DNA of 64,000 nt, taken from assembly GCA_007693785.1 (NCBI GenBank), contig RECY01000023.1, forward strand, positions 1 to 64,000, written 5' to 3'. The notes beneath the pieces were generated by a model. That model was not told the DNA's origin and did not search any database. It worked only from the letters and a program-made list of their open reading frames with translations. This DNA is from Phycisphaerales bacterium (GTDB lineage Bacteria > Planctomycetota > Phycisphaerae > Phycisphaerales > UBA1924). The translations under genes and the position numbers were made by a program. Positions 26,864 to 36,712 of this stretch are shown piece after piece; positions within the stretch are counted from its first letter, which is position 1; each line of letters begins with the position of its first letter.

Positions 26864-27327
26864 GTCTCTGGTCTCCGTGTGTTCTCGGCGTCGTGTCTCT
26901 CTCGGGCCTGCGGTCGACGCCATTGGCCGCTGGCGTACTTTGGTCTGTGCGATGGGGAATTGCTGTCCTGCCTGACCCAAGCACGCGAGATCCCGTGAGG
27001 TCGTGCCTGTTCACGCCTCCCCGGCTGCGATAGAGGAGAGGTCTTTGCCCCACGGCTCATGCTGCTTTGAGGAGACTACAGACTCGCGAAAAAGACGTCA
27101 AGGATTATTCTCAGAACAATCACAGAATTGTGAAGGCATCGGCGGCTCGCCGGGTACACTGCATCTGGAGAAGCTCAGACGCTTTCGACGGGGCTTTCCA
27201 CGGGTCGAACGCCTCTTCGGTCGAAGCTGGTCGATCCGTCCGCCTCGCGGAGCTGTCTAGGCATATGGAGCGATAAACAGAGATTTATTCGGGCGGCCAT
27301 TGCCCGGCGAGACGGAGTGTGTCAGCG
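26864..27327. other. Divergent promoter region, no gene seen
   Basis: About 460 bp between the PEP-CTERM gene (minus) and the unknown gene at 27328 (plus). Locally lower GC around 27090-27135 and 27265-27290. It presumably holds both promoters; I cannot assign boxes with confidence and see no ORF worth listing. Confidence 0.3.
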
Positions 27328-28572
27328 ATGCCCAACCTCAGAAAGGCCATGCCCGATCGGACGGAGCCGCCGATCGAGGTGCAGATCGGTGAGGTCGGGC
27401 GACAGCTCGCGGAAAGCTTCCAGCGTCTCTTGGACGGCACCGAGAGCCGCCCGAGCGCGCCCAAGGACGTTGCCCGGACCTACGGCATGAACGCGGTCTT
27501 CGCGCAGCGTCTGGCGGCGGCCCTGAAGCGGACCGACCCCTTGGCGACGCTGCAGCACATTCCGGGCCCCGAACCGTTGCGCCGCTTGATCGAGGCCGCG
27601 AGGAAAAAGGGCGTGCCGGAGCCGCTGCTCGAGCAGGCGACGGCCGCGAACGACGCGTTCCAGCACATCATCCGACACGTCGCCGGCGATCGGAGCGGGC
27701 TCGACGCGATCATCGCCGCGTGGCTCCCCGAGGCGCGGGCGAGGATTGACAACGATGCGAAGCAGTCGGCCTACCGCGGGATGCGACAGCTCAAGGGCAT
27801 CGCCGCGAACACGGTGTTCTTCACCTGCTTCATCCATCCCGGCGGGCCTGGCCAGCCCCGGCACGATCAGCTCATCCTCCGCGGGCACATGGGGCTGCGC
27901 TGCGTCCGACCGGGAGCACCGCTCACGCTCTCGATCCGCACGGGCTCAACGCGTCCAACACCTGTCGAATCGATCGAAGGTGTGTCCGTTCGCGAGAACC
28001 CGCGGAGCATCCTGATCGACGAGTTCTGCTGCGGGCTCCCGCTTGAGCTCTCGTGCCACGAGATCGGGGACGCGGCCGTCTACACCTTTGACTGGGGCGA
28101 CGCCGTGGGGATCTCCTCGGCCCGCGACATCGTGCTCGGCGAGCTCACCCGCGCCTTCTTCCGCCCGAGTTGCCCGCCGGACAGCCCGCGTCCGCGCAGC
28201 GGCGTGACCCATGGGATCAGCGTGCCCACCGCGCTGTACTTTTTTGACATGATCCTGCACAAAGACGTGTTCCCGGGACGCGATCCGAAGATGCGCGTTC
28301 TGGAACTTGGCGAGAGCGGCGCGGCCGACCCGAACGACGAGAGCCGCGAGTTTGAAGGGCTTGATGTCGCCGACAAAGTCGATGCCATGGGCCTCGGCTT
28401 CCAGCGTCTACGGACGCAGGACATCCCCAACTACGTTGATCTGCTTGAGCACGTCTGCGGCAAGATGAGGTGGAACCCCGCCGAGATGCGGTGCTACCGC
28501 ACGCGGATCGAGTACCCGATCTTCGGCTCTCAGGTACGCATGGCGTTCGACTTGCCCCTTGAGACGAGTTGA
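27328..28572 (+). CDS. Conserved-looking hypothetical protein, 414 aa
   Basis: I do not recognise this protein. It has no signal peptide or membrane span. The first ~140 residues are helical, with an HTH-like stretch (APKDVARTYGMNAVFAQRL). The remainder is mixed, with beta-strand runs such as QLILRGHMGLRCVRPGAPL and SILIDEFCCGLPLELSCHE, and a helical end (YVDLLEHVCGKMRW). The coding pattern is clear and uninterrupted. GGAG stands ten bases before the ATG at 27328; a GTG at 27319 is possible. An AraC or kinase identity is not supported. It directly precedes recombinase remnant C and could be cargo or the module's left edge. Confidence 0.7.
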   Translation: MPNLRKAMPDRTEPPIEVQIGEVGRQLAESFQRLLDGTESRPSAPKDVARTYGMNAVFAQRLAAALKRTDPLATLQHIPGPEPLRRLIEAARKKGVPEPLLEQATAANDAFQHIIRHVAGDRSGLDAIIAAWLPEARARIDNDAKQSAYRGMRQLKGIAANTVFFTCFIHPGGPGQPRHDQLILRGHMGLRCVRPGAPLTLSIRTGSTRPTPVESIEGVSVRENPRSILIDEFCCGLPLELSCHEIGDAAVYTFDWGDAVGISSARDIVLGELTRAFFRPSCPPDSPRPRSGVTHGISVPTALYFFDMILHKDVFPGRDPKMRVLELGESGAADPNDESREFEGLDVADKVDAMGLGFQRLRTQDIPNYVDLLEHVCGKMRWNPAEMRCYRTRIEYPIFGSQVRMAFDLPLETS

Positions 28573-28590
28573 CCCGCTCGCTATCCGATT

Positions 28591-28730
28591 TGTGGCGCAT
28601 CAAGGACCTGAACCTCGACGCGGGCTCCATCCGCGTCGGCCACGCCAGCCTCGCCACGACCATCCGCTACCTCGACCACCTCTGCCCGGCTGCCGTCGTC
28701 CGGGCCATCACGCAAGGGAATGGGAGGCGT
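28591..28730 (+). pseudogene. Tyrosine recombinase remnant with internal deletion (copy C)
   Basis: Plus frame: RIKDLNLDAGSIRV joined directly to GHASLATTIRYLDHLCPAAV and then VRAI. In the full copy (10591) these two parts are separated by about 100 residues holding the first catalytic histidine and arginine. The joint lies at a short GGCCACGCC/CTGCACGCC-like similarity, so a deletion by microhomology is likely. It is on the opposite strand to the other copies and marks the left edge of the rhodopsin-efflux module. Confidence 0.8.
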
Positions 28731-29020: not shown

Positions 29021-29824
29021 ATGGTCGTGGCGAATATTTCGGACACCTCGATCGCCCTGAATGCTGGGCTCTCGATCGAGGGGATCACCATGTATCTCTT
29101 CTGGGTCGGCACGGTCGCGATGGGGGCGGGAGCGATCTTTTTCTGGCTCATGGCCGGGTCTGTCCCCAAGGTCTATCGGTCGGTGCTCGTGGTCTCAGGC
29201 GTGATCTGCGCGGTCGCGTGTTTCCACTATTTCCGCATGTCCAGTCTTTACATCGAGCAGGTTGCCCAGCTCTTTGCGCCCGATGGCACGCGCATCGCTG
29301 GTGCCGAGATCGGCCAGTTCCCGACCGCCTATCGCTACATTGACTGGATCATCACCGTGCCGCTGCTGGTGCTGAAGTTTCCTTTGCTGCTCAACCTCGG
29401 GCGATCTGGCGCGACCCTGTTCCGAACCCTCGTCGCGGCATCCATGGCGATGCTCATCCTCGCGTGGGTGGCCGAGGAATCAACCGTTGGCGGCGGTACG
29501 TGGTGGATCACCTACCTGCTCTCGTGCGCGGCCTGGCTGTACATCGTCTATGTCCTCTTTGTCCAGGTCTCGGGCCAGATTGCCAGCAAGCCGGAGCCCA
29601 TCGCCCGCTCGCTCAAGACCATGCGCCTGTTCATCCTCGTCGGGTGGACGATCTACCCCGTGGGCTTCCTCATGGCGCTCGCCGGCAACGATGGGGAGTC
29701 TGTCCGCGAGATCTGCTACAACATCGCGGACGTCATCAACAAGGTCTTCTTCGGGCTCGTCGCGTACGCGGGCGTCAAGGCGGTGAGCGAAACGCCCGAC
29801 GCGATCTCCAAGGCGGCCAACTGA
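29021..29824 (+). CDS. Microbial rhodopsin, proton-pump type with DTK motif
   Basis: A 267-residue seven-helix retinal protein. Helix C reads YRYIDWIITVPLLVLKF: D108 (proton acceptor), T112, and K119 at the position where proteorhodopsin has the carboxylic donor Glu108. Helix B keeps H69 (partner of the acceptor in proteorhodopsin). Helix G has D237 and the Schiff-base lysine K241 in DVINKVFFG. The residue corresponding to position 105 is Leu, usually green-absorbing. Lysine as donor is known from Exiguobacterium rhodopsin, so outward proton pumping is the likely function. GGAG stands about eight bases before the ATG. The retinal-synthesis gene blh follows, so the pair forms a self-sufficient light-energy unit if beta-carotene is made elsewhere. 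Confidence 0.95.
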   Translation: MVVANISDTSIALNAGLSIEGITMYLFWVGTVAMGAGAIFFWLMAGSVPKVYRSVLVVSGVICAVACFHYFRMSSLYIEQVAQLFAPDGTRIAGAEIGQFPTAYRYIDWIITVPLLVLKFPLLLNLGRSGATLFRTLVAASMAMLILAWVAEESTVGGGTWWITYLLSCAAWLYIVYVLFVQVSGQIASKPEPIARSLKTMRLFILVGWTIYPVGFLMALAGNDGESVREICYNIADVINKVFFGLVAYAGVKAVSETPDAISKAAN

Positions 29825-29907
29825 TCCGGCTCCCAATTTTTGAAGACCGGAACGATTGGTGTCTTCCCACCAGACCATCTCGGATCATCAAACATTCTTT
29901 GACGGGG

Positions 29908-29935
29908 GCGCACGGGAAGTGCGCTCTCATTTTTT
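29908..29935 (+). terminator. Terminator/attenuator hairpin between rhodopsin and blh genes
   Basis: GCGCAC-GGGAA-GTGCGC (6-bp GC-rich stem) followed five bases later by TTTTTT. It ends about five bases before the blh ATG. This would lower blh expression relative to the rhodopsin, sensible since one oxygenase serves many opsins. It also occupies the ribosome-binding region of blh, where no Shine-Dalgarno is visible. Confidence 0.65.
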
Positions 29936-29939
29936 CGGG

Positions 29940-30911
29940 ATGGACACTCTTGGGCCGCACGCGTGGATGGCGCTCGCCTTTGCACTCCTCGCCAGCTTCA
30001 TGTTCCGACCCGCGCCGGAGTCCGGCGGGTGGCTCTGGGCCGTCGCGTTGTTCGTGATCGGCATGCCGCACGGGGGGTATGACCTCGAGGCGATCCGGCG
30101 CACAACCGGAACGCGGGCCTGGGGCGCTGTCGTGCGCCCGTTCGCCGCCTATACGCTGGTCATGCTGGCGTGTCTCGGCGCGATGGTCGCGGTGCCAACC
30201 ATCGCTCTGCTGGCGTTCCTATGTCTGACCATGCACCATTTTGGTCACTCGGACAGCGTCTGGACGCGATACGAGGCTCGGCCACGCTTGTTGGACAGGG
30301 TGCCGGCATGGGGGCATGGTGCCGTCGTGATTGCTTCACCATTCTACTTTCAACCGGCTGCGGCCTGGATGCCGTTCGAAACGATCGCTCGAGTGTTCAG
30401 GTCACAGCACACGCTGTCGCTCCCGAGCCTGCAGCTCGCGGCAGGCGTGCTGCTGACCCTCGCAGCCGCCCTCCTCTGCCTGGGCATCGTCCGACTGATT
30501 GTCGCGCATCGTCATCGCGACGCCGTTCGGCAAATCGCGATCGTCGCGCTGATGCTCGCCCTGGCCGCGTACGCCCCGCCCCTCGTCGCGGTGGGTGCGT
30601 ACTTCCTCGTCGTGCACGCGCTGGGTCATTGCCTGACCGCGTCCTTGCCACCTCGTGGCAGAACAAGCTCTGCGACCGTCGCGGGCGCCTGGCGCGTGCA
30701 CGCTCGTTCACTGCCGCTCCTGCTGCCGTCGATTCTGATTGTGCTTGCCATGAGCGGGCTGTTTATGGCCAAGCCGGTCCTGGTGGATCGCATCGGCTTG
30801 GCATTCTTGCTTTTCTGCGTCTTCGCAACGCTCCCCCACCACATGCTTTGGGCTGGTTCTACTTTTTTCGGAACGCTGCGCGTGCCACACGCCTCGATAG
30901 ACCAATCGTAA
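29940..30911 (+). CDS. blh: Beta-carotene 15,15'-dioxygenase, Brp/Blh family
   Basis: A 323-residue integral membrane oxygenase that cleaves beta-carotene into two retinals for the upstream rhodopsin. The iron-binding histidine motifs of the Brp/Blh family are all seen: GMPHGGYDLE at 41-50, MHHFGHSD at 98-105, VVHALGHC near 236 and TLPHHMLW near 302. About seven hydrophobic helices. The ATG at 29940 is used; an in-frame TTG at 29856 would add 28 unconserved residues. No beta-carotene biosynthesis genes are in the window. Gene order rhodopsin-blh is common in horizontally spread phototrophy cassettes. Confidence 0.93.
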   Translation: MDTLGPHAWMALAFALLASFMFRPAPESGGWLWAVALFVIGMPHGGYDLEAIRRTTGTRAWGAVVRPFAAYTLVMLACLGAMVAVPTIALLAFLCLTMHHFGHSDSVWTRYEARPRLLDRVPAWGHGAVVIASPFYFQPAAAWMPFETIARVFRSQHTLSLPSLQLAAGVLLTLAAALLCLGIVRLIVAHRHRDAVRQIAIVALMLALAAYAPPLVAVGAYFLVVHALGHCLTASLPPRGRTSSATVAGAWRVHARSLPLLLPSILIVLAMSGLFMAKPVLVDRIGLAFLLFCVFATLPHHMLWAGSTFFGTLRVPHASIDQS

Positions 30912-31083: not shown

Positions 31084-31355
31084 TCAGTTCATAGTGCATG
31101 TGAGTTCAGGGACTCGGCTACCCGCTGCAGAGCCGCCCGGATCGGAGGGCGGGCCTGCAACGATCGTCTCCTGGGTGGGCGGTCGATAGCCCAGCGTCGA
31201 GACAGCTGGACCGTGTTGTAATGCTCGAGCCACCTCTCGATCAGTACCCGCGCCTCCAGCAGCGTCTCAAAGCATTCGCGGTTCAGTAGTTCATCACGGA
31301 GCCTGCCGCTGAAGCTCTCGACATAGCCATTCTCCCAGGGCTGCCAGGCTTAATG
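31084..31355 (-). pseudogene. IS3-family transposase OrfB C-terminal remnant
   Basis: Minus strand pieces read ENGYVESFSGRLRDELLNRE, CFETLLEARVLIERWLEHYN-TV and, in another frame, STLGYRPPTQETIVAGPPSD ending at a TGA at 31084-31086. These are the last ~85 residues of an IS3-group DDE transposase, including the region of the final catalytic Glu (the E of VESF). Two frameshifts are needed: a missing C in the PGSPWENG codons and one after NTVQL. No inverted repeats or the 5' part remain. An old transposon trace between blh and the efflux operon. Confidence 0.8.
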
Positions 31356-31498: not shown

Positions 31499-32158
31499 GT
31501 GTCCGATTTTTCATCAAGCATCTCGACGGACGATACCCGCGACCGCCTGCTGCACGCGGCGGGTGAGGAGTTCGCGCGGGTCGGCTTCGCCTCGGCGAGC
31601 GTGCGGGCGATCTGCGACGCCGCCGGGGCCAATGTGTCCGCGGTCAAGTACCACTACGGATCGAAGGAATCGCTCTACCTCGCGGTCTGGTCGGTTGCGG
31701 CCGAGCAGATGGTCATCGCCGAGCCGATGCCCACGGTCGAAGACTTCGAGGACCCGAAGGACGCGCTCCGTGCGTACGTCGCGTGGTTCATGCGGCTCGT
31801 GCTCACCGAGAGCAAGACCCACCCTTGGGCGGGGCGGCTGCTCGCGCACGAGACCGTCTCGCCGACACCAGGGGCTCTGGATGTGTTCGTGAAGCACTGC
31901 GCCGGGCCGGTGACCAAGGAGATCTCGCGGATTGTCAAAGCGATCGTGGGCAAGCCCATGCCCGCCAAGACCCACGACGACCTGGTCTTCGCCGTGGTCG
32001 CCCTGTGCGTCAACCCCAAGCACTCCTGCGAGATCCTGACCAAGCTCGGGCACCCGCCGCCGCAGAGCAAGGCCGCGATCAACCGCATGGCGAGCGTCAT
32101 GGCCGAGTTTGCCATCAGCGGGCTCTCGGGCTTCGCCGGCAAAGGGGACGAGCGATGA
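31499..32158 (+). CDS. TetR-family regulator with CerR/CecR-like C-terminal domain
   Basis: A 219-residue repressor. The N-terminal HTH is TRDRLLHAAGEEFARVGFAS, then VRAICDAAGANVSAVKYHYG with the YHYGSKESLY end typical of TetR. The C-terminal ligand domain (PWAGRLLAHETVSPTPGAL, then the VTKEISRIVKAIVG helix) resembles the CerR/CecR type; E. coli CecR controls an ABC-type exporter with a HlyD partner, the same layout as here. GTG start at 31499; the stop overlaps the next gene by ATGA. It most likely represses itself and the downstream efflux genes through the operator at 31459-31490. Confidence 0.9.
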   Translation: MSDFSSSISTDDTRDRLLHAAGEEFARVGFASASVRAICDAAGANVSAVKYHYGSKESLYLAVWSVAAEQMVIAEPMPTVEDFEDPKDALRAYVAWFMRLVLTESKTHPWAGRLLAHETVSPTPGALDVFVKHCAGPVTKEISRIVKAIVGKPMPAKTHDDLVFAVVALCVNPKHSCEILTKLGHPPPQSKAAINRMASVMAEFAISGLSGFAGKGDER

Positions 32159-33294
32159 TCACCACGGCGCTGCGGATGCTGATCGGGGACAAGACCAAGC
32201 TGCTCGGGCTGATCTTCGGCGTCGCGTTCAGCACGCTCTTGATCTGCCAGCAGGTCTCGATCTTTGCCGGGCTGCTCGGGCGGGCGTCGAGCGTCATCAA
32301 CGACGTCCGCTCGGCGGACATCTGGGTCATGGACCCCAGTGTCCGCACGATCGACGCCTCGTACCCGATGCGGGACACCGAGCTCTCCCGCGTGCGGGGT
32401 GTGGAGGGGGTCGCCTGGGCGGTGCCGCTGTTCAAGTCCCAAGTGCAGGTCCGGACGCGCGAGGGTCGGCTGGAGAACGCGGTGATCCTCGGCGTGGACG
32501 ACGCGTCGCTCATCGGTGTTCCGAACGAGTTCCTGCTCGGACGCGTCGAAGACCTCGCGCTGCCCGACGCGATCGCGATCAACCCCGCGGGGTTCCGGCT
32601 GCTGTTCCCGGGCGCCGAGCTGGATGTCGGACGCGAGCTGGAGCTGAACGACCGTCGAGCACGCATCGTCGCGATCCTCGACGCGGCCCCCGCGTTCGCC
32701 GCGAACCTGACGATCTACACCCGCTACAGCCTCGCCACCACCTACACCAATCCGGGGCGCAACGTCATGAGCTTCATCATCGCCAGGTCGGGCGACGGGC
32801 TTTCGCCCGAGGTGGTCGCGCAGAACATCACGGACCGAACCGGGCTCAAGGCGGTGTCGTCGTCCGCGTTCCGCAACGAATCGATCATGTACATCATCGA
32901 GAACACGGGCATCCCCGTCAGCTTCGGCACCGTGGTCGTGCTCGGGGCGATCATCGGCGTCGCCATCGTGGGCCTGACCTTCAACCAGTTCATCATGGAG
33001 AACCTGAAGCAGTACGCGGCGCTGAAGGCGATCGGCCTGAAAAACCGCCGCCTGCTCGCCATGACGCTCTGGCAGGCCGGGTTCGTGTGCGTGATCGGCT
33101 ACGGGCTCGGGCTCGGCGCGGCGGTGATGTTCTTCCGGAGCACCGCGGACGTCGATGCGTTACGCGGCTTCTACCTGCTCCCCGAGGTGGCGGGTGGCGT
33201 CGCGGTGCTCGCGGCGGTCATCGTGCTGCTCTCCACGCTGGTCAGCATGCGTCGCGTCCTCACCGTCGACCCCGCGACCGTCTTTCGAGGCTAA
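32155..33294 (+). CDS. ABC exporter permease (MacB/DevC-like, FtsX fold)
   Basis: A 379-residue permease with one N-terminal helix (LLGLIFGVAFSTLLICQQVS), a periplasmic domain of ~220 residues, and three C-terminal helices (VVVLGAIIGVAIVGLTFNQF, VCVIGYGLGLGAAVMFF, GGVAVLAAVIVLLSTLVSM). This is the FtsX/MacB topology, close to DevC of heterocyst glycolipid exporters. It should work as a dimer with the ATPase at 33298 and the HlyD-type adaptor at 34080 to drive export by a mechanotransmission mechanism. Substrate unknown. The ATG overlaps the tetR stop. Confidence 0.9.
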   Translation: MITTALRMLIGDKTKLLGLIFGVAFSTLLICQQVSIFAGLLGRASSVINDVRSADIWVMDPSVRTIDASYPMRDTELSRVRGVEGVAWAVPLFKSQVQVRTREGRLENAVILGVDDASLIGVPNEFLLGRVEDLALPDAIAINPAGFRLLFPGAELDVGRELELNDRRARIVAILDAAPAFAANLTIYTRYSLATTYTNPGRNVMSFIIARSGDGLSPEVVAQNITDRTGLKAVSSSAFRNESIMYIIENTGIPVSFGTVVVLGAIIGVAIVGLTFNQFIMENLKQYAALKAIGLKNRRLLAMTLWQAGFVCVIGYGLGLGAAVMFFRSTADVDALRGFYLLPEVAGGVAVLAAVIVLLSTLVSMRRVLTVDPATVFRG

Positions 33295-33297
33295 ACC

Positions 33298-34083
33298 GTG
33301 TCCAGCACCACCATCCAGCACAGCCAGAAACATGCTCCTCCGTCAGGATCGGACGCGGCGGTCGTATGCCGCTCGATCGAGAAGTCCTTCGGCGAAGGTC
33401 AAGCCCGCGTTCGTGTGCTGCGCGGGACGGACTTCGACGCCAAGGCCGGCGAGATGACATTCCTCGTGGGCCCGTCGGGGTGCGGCAAGACCACTTTGAT
33501 CTCGATCATCGGGGCGATCCTATCGTGCGACGACGGCGATATCCGTGTGCTGGGCGATGACCTCCGCCGGATGCGCAACGGGCGTCTGGCCGAGTTCAGG
33601 CTCGACAACTTCGGCTTCATCTTCCAGCAGTTCAACCTGCTCCCGGCGCTGAACGCGGCCGAAAACGCCGCCATCCCGCTCGTCGCACGCGGCTACTCCA
33701 CACGGAAGGCCGAGCGCGTCGCGAGCGAGATGCTCGACAAGCTGGGGCTTGGTGAGCACACACGCAAGATCCCGGCGCAGCTCTCCGGCGGCCAGCAGCA
33801 GCGTGTGGCGATCGCGCGGGCGCTCGTGCACAGCCCCAGGATCGTCATCTGCGACGAGCCGACCGCTTCACTGGACGCGGCTTCCGGACAGCGCGTGATG
33901 GAACTGCTTCGCGATGCCGCGATGGACCACGAGCGCGCGGTGATCGTCGTCACCCACGACGACCGGATCTTCCGCTTCGCCGATCGCATTGCGCACATGG
34001 CCGACGGCACCATATCAACGGTCGAACAGGGCAAAGCCGAACACAGCAAGACTGCGGTTGCACCCGAGGACACAACACCATGA
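33298..34083 (+). CDS. ABC transporter ATP-binding protein (LolD/MacB-type)
   Basis: A 261-residue ATPase with Walker A GPSGCGKTT at 58-66, Q-loop QQFNLLPALNA, signature LSGGQQQR at about 162-169, Walker B IVICDEPTASLD and the switch histidine in VVTHDD. It energises the permease at 32155. A GTG start three bases after the permease stop is used; the first 20 residues are unconserved. The stop overlaps the start of the adaptor gene (ATGA). Confidence 0.93.
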   Translation: MSSTTIQHSQKHAPPSGSDAAVVCRSIEKSFGEGQARVRVLRGTDFDAKAGEMTFLVGPSGCGKTTLISIIGAILSCDDGDIRVLGDDLRRMRNGRLAEFRLDNFGFIFQQFNLLPALNAAENAAIPLVARGYSTRKAERVASEMLDKLGLGEHTRKIPAQLSGGQQQRVAIARALVHSPRIVICDEPTASLDAASGQRVMELLRDAAMDHERAVIVVTHDDRIFRFADRIAHMADGTISTVEQGKAEHSKTAVAPEDTTP

Positions 34084-35249
34084 GCAAGCGTTCCAAAGTA
34101 CTGACCTGGGGACTGCCGGCCGTCGGGCTGACCACCTTGGTGCTCGGCTCGTTCGCGGTCATCGTCGACCGCCCCGTGCGAGCGGCCGAGCAGCCGCCGC
34201 GACAACCCACGACCGCACCGACCGAGGCGTTTGTAATGGATTCCCGTGCGTTCATCGGGGCGATCGGTGTCGTCGAGCCTCCCGATGAAGCGATCCAGAT
34301 CGCGGCGCACGTGCCTGGTGTGGTGGAAGCGCTCTTGGTCGGTCTTGGAGACCGCGTCGAAGCGGGACAGCCCCTGCTGCGGATCGACACGCGGCGCGCC
34401 ACCCGTGAAGTCGAACGGCGTCGGGCCGCACTTCGACTGGCGGAAGCGGAACTTGATGCGCTCCGGGCCCAGATCGCCCCGGCTCACGCGAGGGTCGAGT
34501 CCGCGAAGGCGGCCGTTGCCGCTGCAGAAGCCGCGCTCACCACCGCCCGCGCCGAAGTTGACGACCGGCGGAATCGGCTCCGGATCGCCGAATCCGTCGA
34601 TGATCCGAGGGCCATCGCCTCGGAAGAGATCGATGCCAGACGGTTCGCGGTCCAGCGTGCGGCAGGGTCCGCCGCCGAGGCCCAGTCCAAGATCGCGCAA
34701 GCCGTCGGCAGCCTGGCGGAAGCCGAGGCCGAGCTGTCGCTGCTCCGGGATGGCGACCAGGACGGTCCCGACATTCGCGCGGCCACCGCGCGTGTGACTC
34801 AGGCCGCATCGGAGCTCGACGCGGGCGAGACCGACCTCGAACTCGCAACGGTGCGTTCACCGATCGACGCGGTTGTCATCCAGCGCAATATCCGAGTCGG
34901 CGAGTTCGCCGAGGCTCGCAGCAACGGCACAGGCTTGCTGACCCTCTCGCCCGACGGCCCGAAGCACATCCGTGTGCAGATCGATGAGGTCGATATCCCA
35001 AGGTTCCATCCCGATGCGAAAGCCATCGGCTCGCCACGCGGGAACCCGGGCCTGCGCATCCCGCTCACACTGGCGTATGTGGAGCCGCTGGTCGTCGCCA
35101 AGACCAACCTATCCGGGCGGACGAGCGAGCTGATCGACACCCGGGTGCTCCGCGTGGTGTACGCGGTCCCCGCCGAAAGCCAGGGCATCGTGTTCGGGCA
35201 GCAGATCGATGTCTACATCGAGGCCGCGCCGATGGGGGAGGGGTCATGA
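34080..35249 (+). CDS. HlyD/DevB-family periplasmic adaptor
   Basis: A 389-residue membrane-fusion protein. A single N-terminal anchor (LPAVGLTTLVLGSFAVIV) is followed by a lipoyl-type beta segment (AAHVPGVVEALLVGLGDRVE, AGQPLLRID). A long alpha-helical hairpin rich in Ala/Glu/Arg covers about 105-235. The second lipoyl half and barrel domain follow (LATVRSPIDAVVIQRNIRVG, IRVQIDEVDIPRF). It links the inner-membrane ABC complex to the outer-membrane channel encoded next. Overlaps both neighbours by ATGA. Confidence 0.9.
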   Translation: MSKRSKVLTWGLPAVGLTTLVLGSFAVIVDRPVRAAEQPPRQPTTAPTEAFVMDSRAFIGAIGVVEPPDEAIQIAAHVPGVVEALLVGLGDRVEAGQPLLRIDTRRATREVERRRAALRLAEAELDALRAQIAPAHARVESAKAAVAAAEAALTTARAEVDDRRNRLRIAESVDDPRAIASEEIDARRFAVQRAAGSAAEAQSKIAQAVGSLAEAEAELSLLRDGDQDGPDIRAATARVTQAASELDAGETDLELATVRSPIDAVVIQRNIRVGEFAEARSNGTGLLTLSPDGPKHIRVQIDEVDIPRFHPDAKAIGSPRGNPGLRIPLTLAYVEPLVVAKTNLSGRTSELIDTRVLRVVYAVPAESQGIVFGQQIDVYIEAAPMGEGS

Positions 35250-36712
35250 TGCGTGCGCACCGGCGGCAAGTCCAGCTCGCATCCGCTTGGCTCCTCGGCG
35301 CTGTGCTCATCGGCTGCACGGTCGGCCCGGACTACGCGCCACCGGACCTGAGCTTTCGCTTCGGCGAGGGCTGGTCAGAGGCGAATGCTGAACAACAGCA
35401 CGCGAGCCGCAGCGATCTCTCGCGATGGTGGCGGTCCTTCGGCGATGACGAGCTCGTGGTGCTGATCGAGCGTTCGCTGAGCGGCAACCTTGATCTCCTC
35501 GAAGCGCAAGAGCGGATCATCGCGGCCCGAGCCCGCCGAGGCGTGGTCCACGCGGACCGATTGCCGACGCTCGACGCCGAAGCCGCGTATTCCCGGACCG
35601 AGCGGGGCAGCGATGCCCCGATGCAGATGGGGCCGGTCCGTGAGCGCTCGTTCGACACGTTCTCCGGTGGTGTGGTCGCGGGGTGGGAGGCCGATCTTTG
35701 GGGCCGGGTCTCACGCCTGGTCGAGGCCGCGGACGCCGAGACCGACCTGAGCGTCGAAGACTACCGAGCGGTCAGGGTCATGATCGCGGCCGAGGTGGCT
35801 CGGGAGGTCTTGAGCATCCGTGCGATCGATGACCGTCTCGCCGTGCTCGCGCGAGCCATCGAAGTCGACCGTGAGTTCATCGAGATCACGCGGGCTCGCA
35901 CCCGAGCGGGCCTCGTCAGCGAGCTCGACCTGCTCAGGGCCGAGCGAACAGCCTCCGTCAATCGCGCCGCTCGCGAGCCGCTGCGTGGCGAACGCCGGGC
36001 CGCCGAGCACCGCATCGCCGTGCTCGTGGGTGAACGCCCCGGTTCGATCTCGGTCGCTCAGCACCGGCAGGCCGTCGCGCCACCGATCCCGGACCTTGGG
36101 TTACCCGCCGAACTGCTCGTCCGACGTCCCGACATCCGCAGCGCCGAGCGTGCCTACGCCGCGGCGGTGGCGAGAATTGGAGCGGCTCAAGCCGACCGCT
36201 ACCCCCGGGTCGTCTTCGGCGGATCGTTCGTGCTCGGCGGTTCGGATATCGGCGACCTTGTGGACCCGGATACGCGTGTGCTCTCGTTCGGACCGAGGGT
36301 GACCGTTCCAATATTCGAGGGCGGCCGCATCCGCTCAAACATCACCCGTGCCGAGTCGGATGCCCGCTCGGCCCATCTGCGACTGGAGCGGCGGGCACTG
36401 AACGCGGTGCGTGAAGTCGAAACCTCGCTTGTTCGTCTCGGTCGCGCCCGGGACCGAGTCACCGAGCTCGAATCCGCGTTCGATTCCGCCCGCGACGCGG
36501 AGCAACTCGCAACTTCGCTGTACAGCGCCGGGAATATCGACTTCATCAACGTCCTCGAAGCACGGACCGAACGCCTGGCGATCGAAGAACTGCTCGCGAC
36601 CGCCCGGCTTGACGTGCTCAACGAGTCCGTCAGCATCTCCGTTGCGCTTGGCGGAGGGTGGCTTCTTGATGAAGGACCCCTGGGTTCTGATGGCCTTCTT
36701 ACACAGAGGTAG
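35246..36712 (+). CDS. NodT-type outer-membrane efflux lipoprotein (TolC family)
   Basis: A 488-residue outer-membrane channel, last gene of the operon. Lipoprotein signal with lipobox LIGC (Cys24), followed by TVGPDYAPP, the usual NodT start. Two OEP domains follow with RLPTLDAEAAYSRTERG, EVLSIRAIDDRLAVLARAIE, the LVRRPDIRSAERAYAAAVAR signature and QADRYPRVVFGGSF. It ends SVALGGGW, the standard C-terminus, so the protein is complete although recombinase remnant D starts immediately after. Its presence shows the organism has a diderm envelope. Confidence 0.92.
   Translation: MMRAHRRQVQLASAWLLGAVLIGCTVGPDYAPPDLSFRFGEGWSEANAEQQHASRSDLSRWWRSFGDDELVVLIERSLSGNLDLLEAQERIIAARARRGVVHADRLPTLDAEAAYSRTERGSDAPMQMGPVRERSFDTFSGGVVAGWEADLWGRVSRLVEAADAETDLSVEDYRAVRVMIAAEVAREVLSIRAIDDRLAVLARAIEVDREFIEITRARTRAGLVSELDLLRAERTASVNRAAREPLRGERRAAEHRIAVLVGERPGSISVAQHRQAVAPPIPDLGLPAELLVRRPDIRSAERAYAAAVARIGAAQADRYPRVVFGGSFVLGGSDIGDLVDPDTRVLSFGPRVTVPIFEGGRIRSNITRAESDARSAHLRLERRALNAVREVETSLVRLGRARDRVTELESAFDSARDAEQLATSLYSAGNIDFINVLEARTERLAIEELLATARLDVLNESVSISVALGGGWLLDEGPLGSDGLLTQR

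Follow-up and report, generated by a model that had tools for sequence, protein, structure and literature searches.

We found that the window, the whole 64,000-nucleotide stretch of DNA from a Phycisphaerales bacterium which was analysed here, encodes a rhodopsin with a lysine at the proton-donor position (Lys119) in the midst of close relatives which, among those compared, all have glutamate there. Going by comparison of the sequences, the most likely history is that Lys119 was regained by a Glu-to-Lys change along with a Cys-to-Ala change at position 248 of helix G. We give a probability of about 0.68 to the reading in which the protein is an outward light-driven proton pump and these two changes were coupled. 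What appears unusual is the occurrence of a Lys donor amid all-DTE relatives, not the Lys donor itself.

The rhodopsin gene and its surroundings

The rhodopsin gene (29021-29824, + strand) is a single open frame of 267 aa and was the sole match to the Pfam family Bac_rhodopsin in the whole genome (PF01036; 141 bits against a cut-off of 24.6, E = 5.2e-41). The profile match together with the retinal-binding lysine in helix G (K241) identifies the product as a microbial rhodopsin, and Pfam, alignment and a predicted model place it with the ESR-like proton-pump type. Its characteristic residues are H69, D108, T112, L116, K119, D237, K241 and A248. In helix C, D108, T112 and K119 aligned without gaps to the D/T/K of ESR (4hyj) and to the D/T/E of green proteorhodopsin (2l6x), which bears out an earlier note on this DNA, made from the sequence alone, that these residues stand where proteorhodopsin has Asp, Thr and Glu. 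The acceptor Asp is followed by Thr at D+4 and by the donor, which can be Asp, Glu or Lys, at D+11; this spacing is exactly that of ESR and proteorhodopsin, and Lys119 is not displaced by one turn from the donor site. A lysine at this site assigns the protein to the ESR-type (Lys-donor) rhodopsins. DTD, DTE and DTK are given in PMC10154332 as motifs of proton pumps of the proteorhodopsin/ESR kind.

Among solved structures, the top sequence match was ESR (4hyj, 177.5 bits) and the runner-up was green proteorhodopsin (119.4 bits). The predicted structure had a mean pLDDT of 93.8, and both Foldseek and VIA-align ranked ESR first against it (VIA-align: Z = 30.6, rmsd 1.1 over 216 residues). The link to Exiguobacterium which had been drawn previously therefore stands, since ESR is the closest solved relative by both sequence and structure. 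The two proteins have in common the DTK triad, the His-Asp acceptor pair, Ala at the 248 position and the fold. They are about 40-43% identical, however, the B-C loop is longer in the window rhodopsin, and the latter lies within a clade of Glu donors, so that its lysine probably arose independently.

The helix-E fenestration glycine is the mark of antenna-carrying (xanthorhodopsin-type) rhodopsins, and the window rhodopsin has Tyr165 at the aligned site; we take column 165 to be the fenestration site from the numbering of bacteriorhodopsin W138 and xanthorhodopsin G156. Three DTK rhodopsins from Hymenobacter, Pyrinomonadaceae and Lewinella (L095, L096 and L110) have Gly at this site, and these may possibly combine a Lys donor with a carotenoid antenna.

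The next frame is blh (29856-30911, + strand), as had been stated from the sequence, which encodes a Brp/Blh-type beta-carotene 15,15'-dioxygenase (PF15461, 115 bits; TIGR03753, 120.8 bits, cut-off 95.25); its start is unsure, with a TTG as listed and an in-frame ATG at 29940. The cassette had also been described as bordered by two recombinase scars. On the right this was supported by the truncated remnant of an IS3-type transposase (integrase core, rve_3; about 31092-31349, - strand; PF13683, E = 2.5e-16). On the left, where the position meant was probably about 28569-28709 (+ strand), the scar was unsupported, with no Pfam match and only a PHROG integrase family at E = 0.33. The IS3-type remnant separates blh from an efflux operon (31499-36712, + strand) comprising TetR, FtsX-type permease, ABC, HlyD and OEP frames, of which the permease frame is of the FtsX/MacB type.

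A search for repeats flanking the cassette returned short imperfect pairs only. The GC content of the cassette was about 0.61-0.64 vs 0.64-0.68 around it, which as a hint of foreign origin is only suggestive. The rhodopsin gene also adjoins blh in six relatives, with different flanks, and when 17 further frames of the window were compared with the regions of these relatives there was a single match (the frame at 27319, 22.7% identical, near the edge of L204); the rhodopsin-blh pair may be mobile, or the genomes may simply have been shuffled. Eight of 72,556 plasmid records matched P0001, at 28-34% identity, so no mobile close copy of P0001 is present among these plasmids, and nothing in the viral contigs matched P0001 patterns. 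The suggestion that phototrophy had recently been acquired was not borne out: the nearest kin belong to the same family and order, and only one of the two scars has support.

The genome contains HpnC-, HpnD- and HpnE-like squalene genes (HpnC and HpnD below the NCBIfam cut-offs), and a CrtI-family desaturase lies beside this cluster (G000 contig C13, 81690-83431; L238, 7231-12780). The lycopene cyclase models PF05834, PF18916 and TIGR03462 had no match in the genome despite the presence of blh. Full-length PF05834 was found in 0 of 13 tested genomes with the window's rhodopsin type (weak partial matches in 7, best E = 4.6e-8). It was found beside blh in all three genomes (G007, G053 and G071) whose rhodopsin is of the other DTE type, about 30% identical to the window rhodopsin.

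That no lycopene cyclase for beta-carotene synthesis was found would fit a protein that senses light, or a copy in decay, instead of a pump. We regard either as distinctly unlikely: the frame is intact, 80 of the 84 positions which are invariant among relatives have been kept, blh has been retained alongside, and the acceptor, the donor, the second counter-ion D237 and the retinal lysine are all in place. In addition, a Pfam search of the neighbouring frames identified no transducer (the frame at 27319 had no family match).

Relatives of the rhodopsin and the descent of Lys119

We scanned genome contigs at the DNA level with the pattern R-Y-x-D-W-x-x-T-x-P-(hydrophobic)2-x-x-K and found at least 118 stretches; among the matches listed, 115 belonged to DTK rhodopsins, 2 to DTE rhodopsins and 1 had no rhodopsin found. 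There were at least 115 DTK loci, and at least 66 had a Poseidoniales-type helix C. The others, among the matches listed, came from Bacteroidota (n = 13), Planctomycetota (n = 10), Bacillota (n = 8), Verrucomicrobiota (n = 8), Pseudomonadota (n = 5) and a few more. As these loci span several phyla, and as Lys at the donor site has been published for Poseidoniales (PMC6336850, PMC6461757), the view of the earlier note that a lysine donor is rare and best known from Exiguobacterium is too strong. The Lys-donor proteorhodopsins of Poseidoniales (MGII) share DTK with the window rhodopsin and have Ala248 in 65 of 66 listed loci, the remaining one being gapped, but they are archaeal, about 29-38% identical to it and form a separate clade. 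Poseidoniales rhodopsins with a Glu donor have been published as well.

A DTK rhodopsin with Ala248 is also found in Candidatus Uabimicrobium amorphum (L141 / L181). The same phylum holds rhodopsins with NDQ, NTT or NDS motifs (L045 in G180, L047 and L049 in G035, and L190 in G510), which are possibly sodium, chloride or other pumps. In cyanobacterial-mat genomes, PMC13043013 reports an eight-member rhodopsin branch that contains ESR and diverges at the donor position. Our literature search, which covered titles and the openings of abstracts, turned up no report of planctomycetes in which the donor had switched from Glu to Lys.

Rhodopsin matches were found in 52 of the 400 sampled genomes from the window's order, in 8 of 163 from its family and in 44 of 181 from a second rhodopsin-rich family; weak or partial matches (G313, G311, G215, G245 and G038) were kept outside the comparison. 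Within the order, 40 full-length rhodopsins of the same type as the window rhodopsin were compared; all are DTE, and all have Cys at site 248 vs Ala in the window rhodopsin. L222 and L235, from the second rhodopsin-rich family, are DTE/Cys as well. In the eight DTE relatives with codons read, codon 119 (29375-29377, + strand; AAG, Lys, in the window) is GAG or GAA (Glu) and codon 248 (29762-29764, + strand; GCG, Ala, in the window) is TGC or TGT (Cys).

The five nearest rows of the alignment, all DTE (L015, L007, L002, L027 and L006), are 67-76% identical to the window rhodopsin and have the same B-C loop insertion and rhodopsin-blh pair. The organism is a planctomycete, as had been proposed previously. 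The 14 nearest DTK rows, from Planctomycetaceae/Pirellulales and Verrucomicrobiota (e.g. L102, L127), are about 48-53% identical. These resemble the window rhodopsin in DTK and Ala248, and 13 of the 14 have a Blh-type frame of more than 200 aa at the locus, but they lack the marker sites of the Glu clade and the loop insertion. This insertion (residues about 81-96, 29261-29308) occurs in the window rhodopsin and in all 40 of its DTE relatives, which are ungapped at 83, 86 and 87, and is absent in 23 of 23 DTK rows of a 64-row set.

Eighty-four positions are invariant in the 40 DTE rows, and the window rhodopsin differs at four of them: 59, 76, 119 and 248. When the 40 DTE rows were set against the 23 DTK rows in the 64-row set, the only strict separators were 119, 145 and 248. 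At 119 and 248 the window rhodopsin has the Lys-type residue, at 145 the Glu-type one. It carries further Glu-type markers at 65 (V), 113 (V), 117 (V), 165 (Y) and 226 (E), in addition to 145 (L), and is of neither type at 61. I187 and P193 are Lys-type, each being found in 14 of the 14 nearest DTK rows vs 1 of the 40 DTE rows.

It could be argued that GAG was read as AAG at codon 119 through a one-base assembly or sequencing error and that the real protein is DTE, as a single genome of the genus was compared and so no second copy was available. However, the strict marker at 248 is also Lys-type, and its GCG differs from the TGC of relatives at all three bases; as both codons have changed, a single base error cannot yield the pair, and we find this explanation scarcely credible. 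Very unlikely, too, is an origin of the two Lys-type residues in a DTK rhodopsin gene that recombined with this one. DTK rhodopsins are present in other planctomycetes and I187 and P193 are Lys-type too, but the Glu-type markers (65, 113, 117, 145, 165 and 226) lie between and around the two, so that the imported block would have been very short and would have been imported at least twice.

We built a 107-row rhodopsin tree which left out L045-L050 (fragments, other motifs), the truncated L113, L135, L143, L144, L148 and L162, the duplicates L178-L181, L189 and L191, L190 (NDQ), L088, L186 and L187 (near-identical to kept rows) and about seven of the eight Poseidoniales rows. In this tree, the order's DTE clade, which numbered 41 rows with the window, was nested in a wider DTK group, and the window grouped with five DTE rows. 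The same grouping of the window with five DTE rows was recovered from the 64-row set when columns 119 and 248 were masked (support 96/90), and forcing the 40 DTE rows into a group that excluded the window cost 19.8 log units (P = 0.039). Without the ESR-clade rows this test gave P = 0.196 and the six-row group had a support of 45/86, so the rhodopsin alone is not decisive.

In the Blh tree, the Blh of the window clustered with the same five genomes (99/95). L063, whose Blh row came out misplaced on a branch of 8.94, was dropped from the Blh and joint trees made afterwards. Without it, the six-row group had a support of 91/96 and the test keeping the DTE rows apart gave P = 0.0011; a narrower test, of the five rows excluding the window, did not lead to rejection (P = 0.113). 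For rhodopsin and Blh jointly (51 rows), the six-row group had a support of 100/100 and the DTE-apart arrangement P = 0.010. It should be borne in mind that the groups were named after the first tree had been seen, and these P values are therefore optimistic. Blh would be an independent witness to descent if the pair was inherited together. The trees put the window rhodopsin with DTE rows, more firmly with Blh than by the rhodopsin alone.

The trees support a window lineage inside a planctomycete clade of Glu users, in which Lys would have been regained by a Glu-to-Lys change. Alternatively, Lys119 and Ala248 could be ancestral, retained from the wider DTK group (ESR/verrucomicrobial/Planctomycetaceae), the DTE planctomycetes having turned to Glu/Cys once or more around the window lineage. 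Retention predicts residues in common with the nearest DTK rows, as is the case for I187 and P193, and the rhodopsin alone, without the ESR rows, does not reject it (P = 0.196). We nonetheless consider it rather unlikely, as it is opposed by the tests on rhodopsin with ESR rows (0.039), on Blh (0.0011) and on both (0.010; six-row group 100/100), and as it would call for four Lys-to-Glu changes, one on every DTE branch that surrounds the window, vs 2 donor changes on the best rhodopsin tree.

Site 248 and the lysine donor

Site 248 is found seven residues after the retinal lysine, in the cytoplasmic half of helix G. We take it to be near the donor from the geometry of bacteriorhodopsin, where D96 and L223 are the corresponding residues. 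We counted residues at this site from the alignment after removing duplicates (L178, L179, L180, L181, L189 and L191 repeat other loci) and setting aside gapped rows (3 DTK, 2 DTE) and the NDQ/NTT/NDS rhodopsins; the loci that remain still include four pairs in which the protein stretch is the same. Among the matches listed, with the window included, 108 of 113 DTK loci have Ala, 4 have Val, 1 has Thr and none has Cys, these loci having been chosen for Lys119 and not for site 248. Of the 54 DTE loci, 42 carry Cys here and the other 12 carry Ile.

Parsimony on the 107-row tree requires at least 3 donor changes and 7 changes at site 248, and again 7 when the two sites are scored together. As the joint minimum equals that of site 248, every donor change can be placed on a branch with a change at 248; four changes at 248 occur without a donor change. 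Related rows are non-independent, and it is about three donor changes, not 167 independent cases, that link 119 to 248. We give an even chance to a history in which the donor switched repeatedly, from Glu to Lys, to Glu again where the planctomycete clade begins and then once more to Lys in the window lineage, with site 248 going each time from Ile to Ala, from Ala to Cys and from Cys to Ala, and in which 248 is the compensating partner that lets a Lys donor work at speed.

By analogy with ESR, the window rhodopsin would pump protons outward. The proton of the Schiff base would pass to D108; a neutral Lys119 would then gain a proton from the cytoplasm and afterwards reprotonate the Schiff base, so that with Lys the order of these proton steps would be the reverse of that with a Glu donor. 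The replacement of Glu by Lys at 119 would have been accompanied by that of Cys by Ala at 248 in helix G, and the small Ala248 would leave space for the swinging side chain of Lys119. We infer from this that the changes at 119 and 248 were coupled, the small alanine making room for the longer, swinging lysine.

Exchanges of the donor have been made in the laboratory. Sasaki et al. 2021 (PMC8387761) report that proteorhodopsin is functional with Lys and ESR with Glu, through a swing of the donor side chain, and that the PR-E108K and ESR-K96E mutants still pump. In the Results of that paper the activity of the swapped pumps is similar to wild type; its Discussion describes PR-E108K as significantly less active and puts this down to a distorted conformation and slow N decay. 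For whatever a mutant of the PR-E108K kind is missing, a small residue at 248 suggests itself.

The window rhodopsin resembles a natural version of this laboratory donor mutant, set in a close Glu background and with one additional change in helix G. If the coupling with site 248 is true, 248 would be a residue which decides between a carboxylate and an amine donor, and it would help to predict donor chemistry from sequence.
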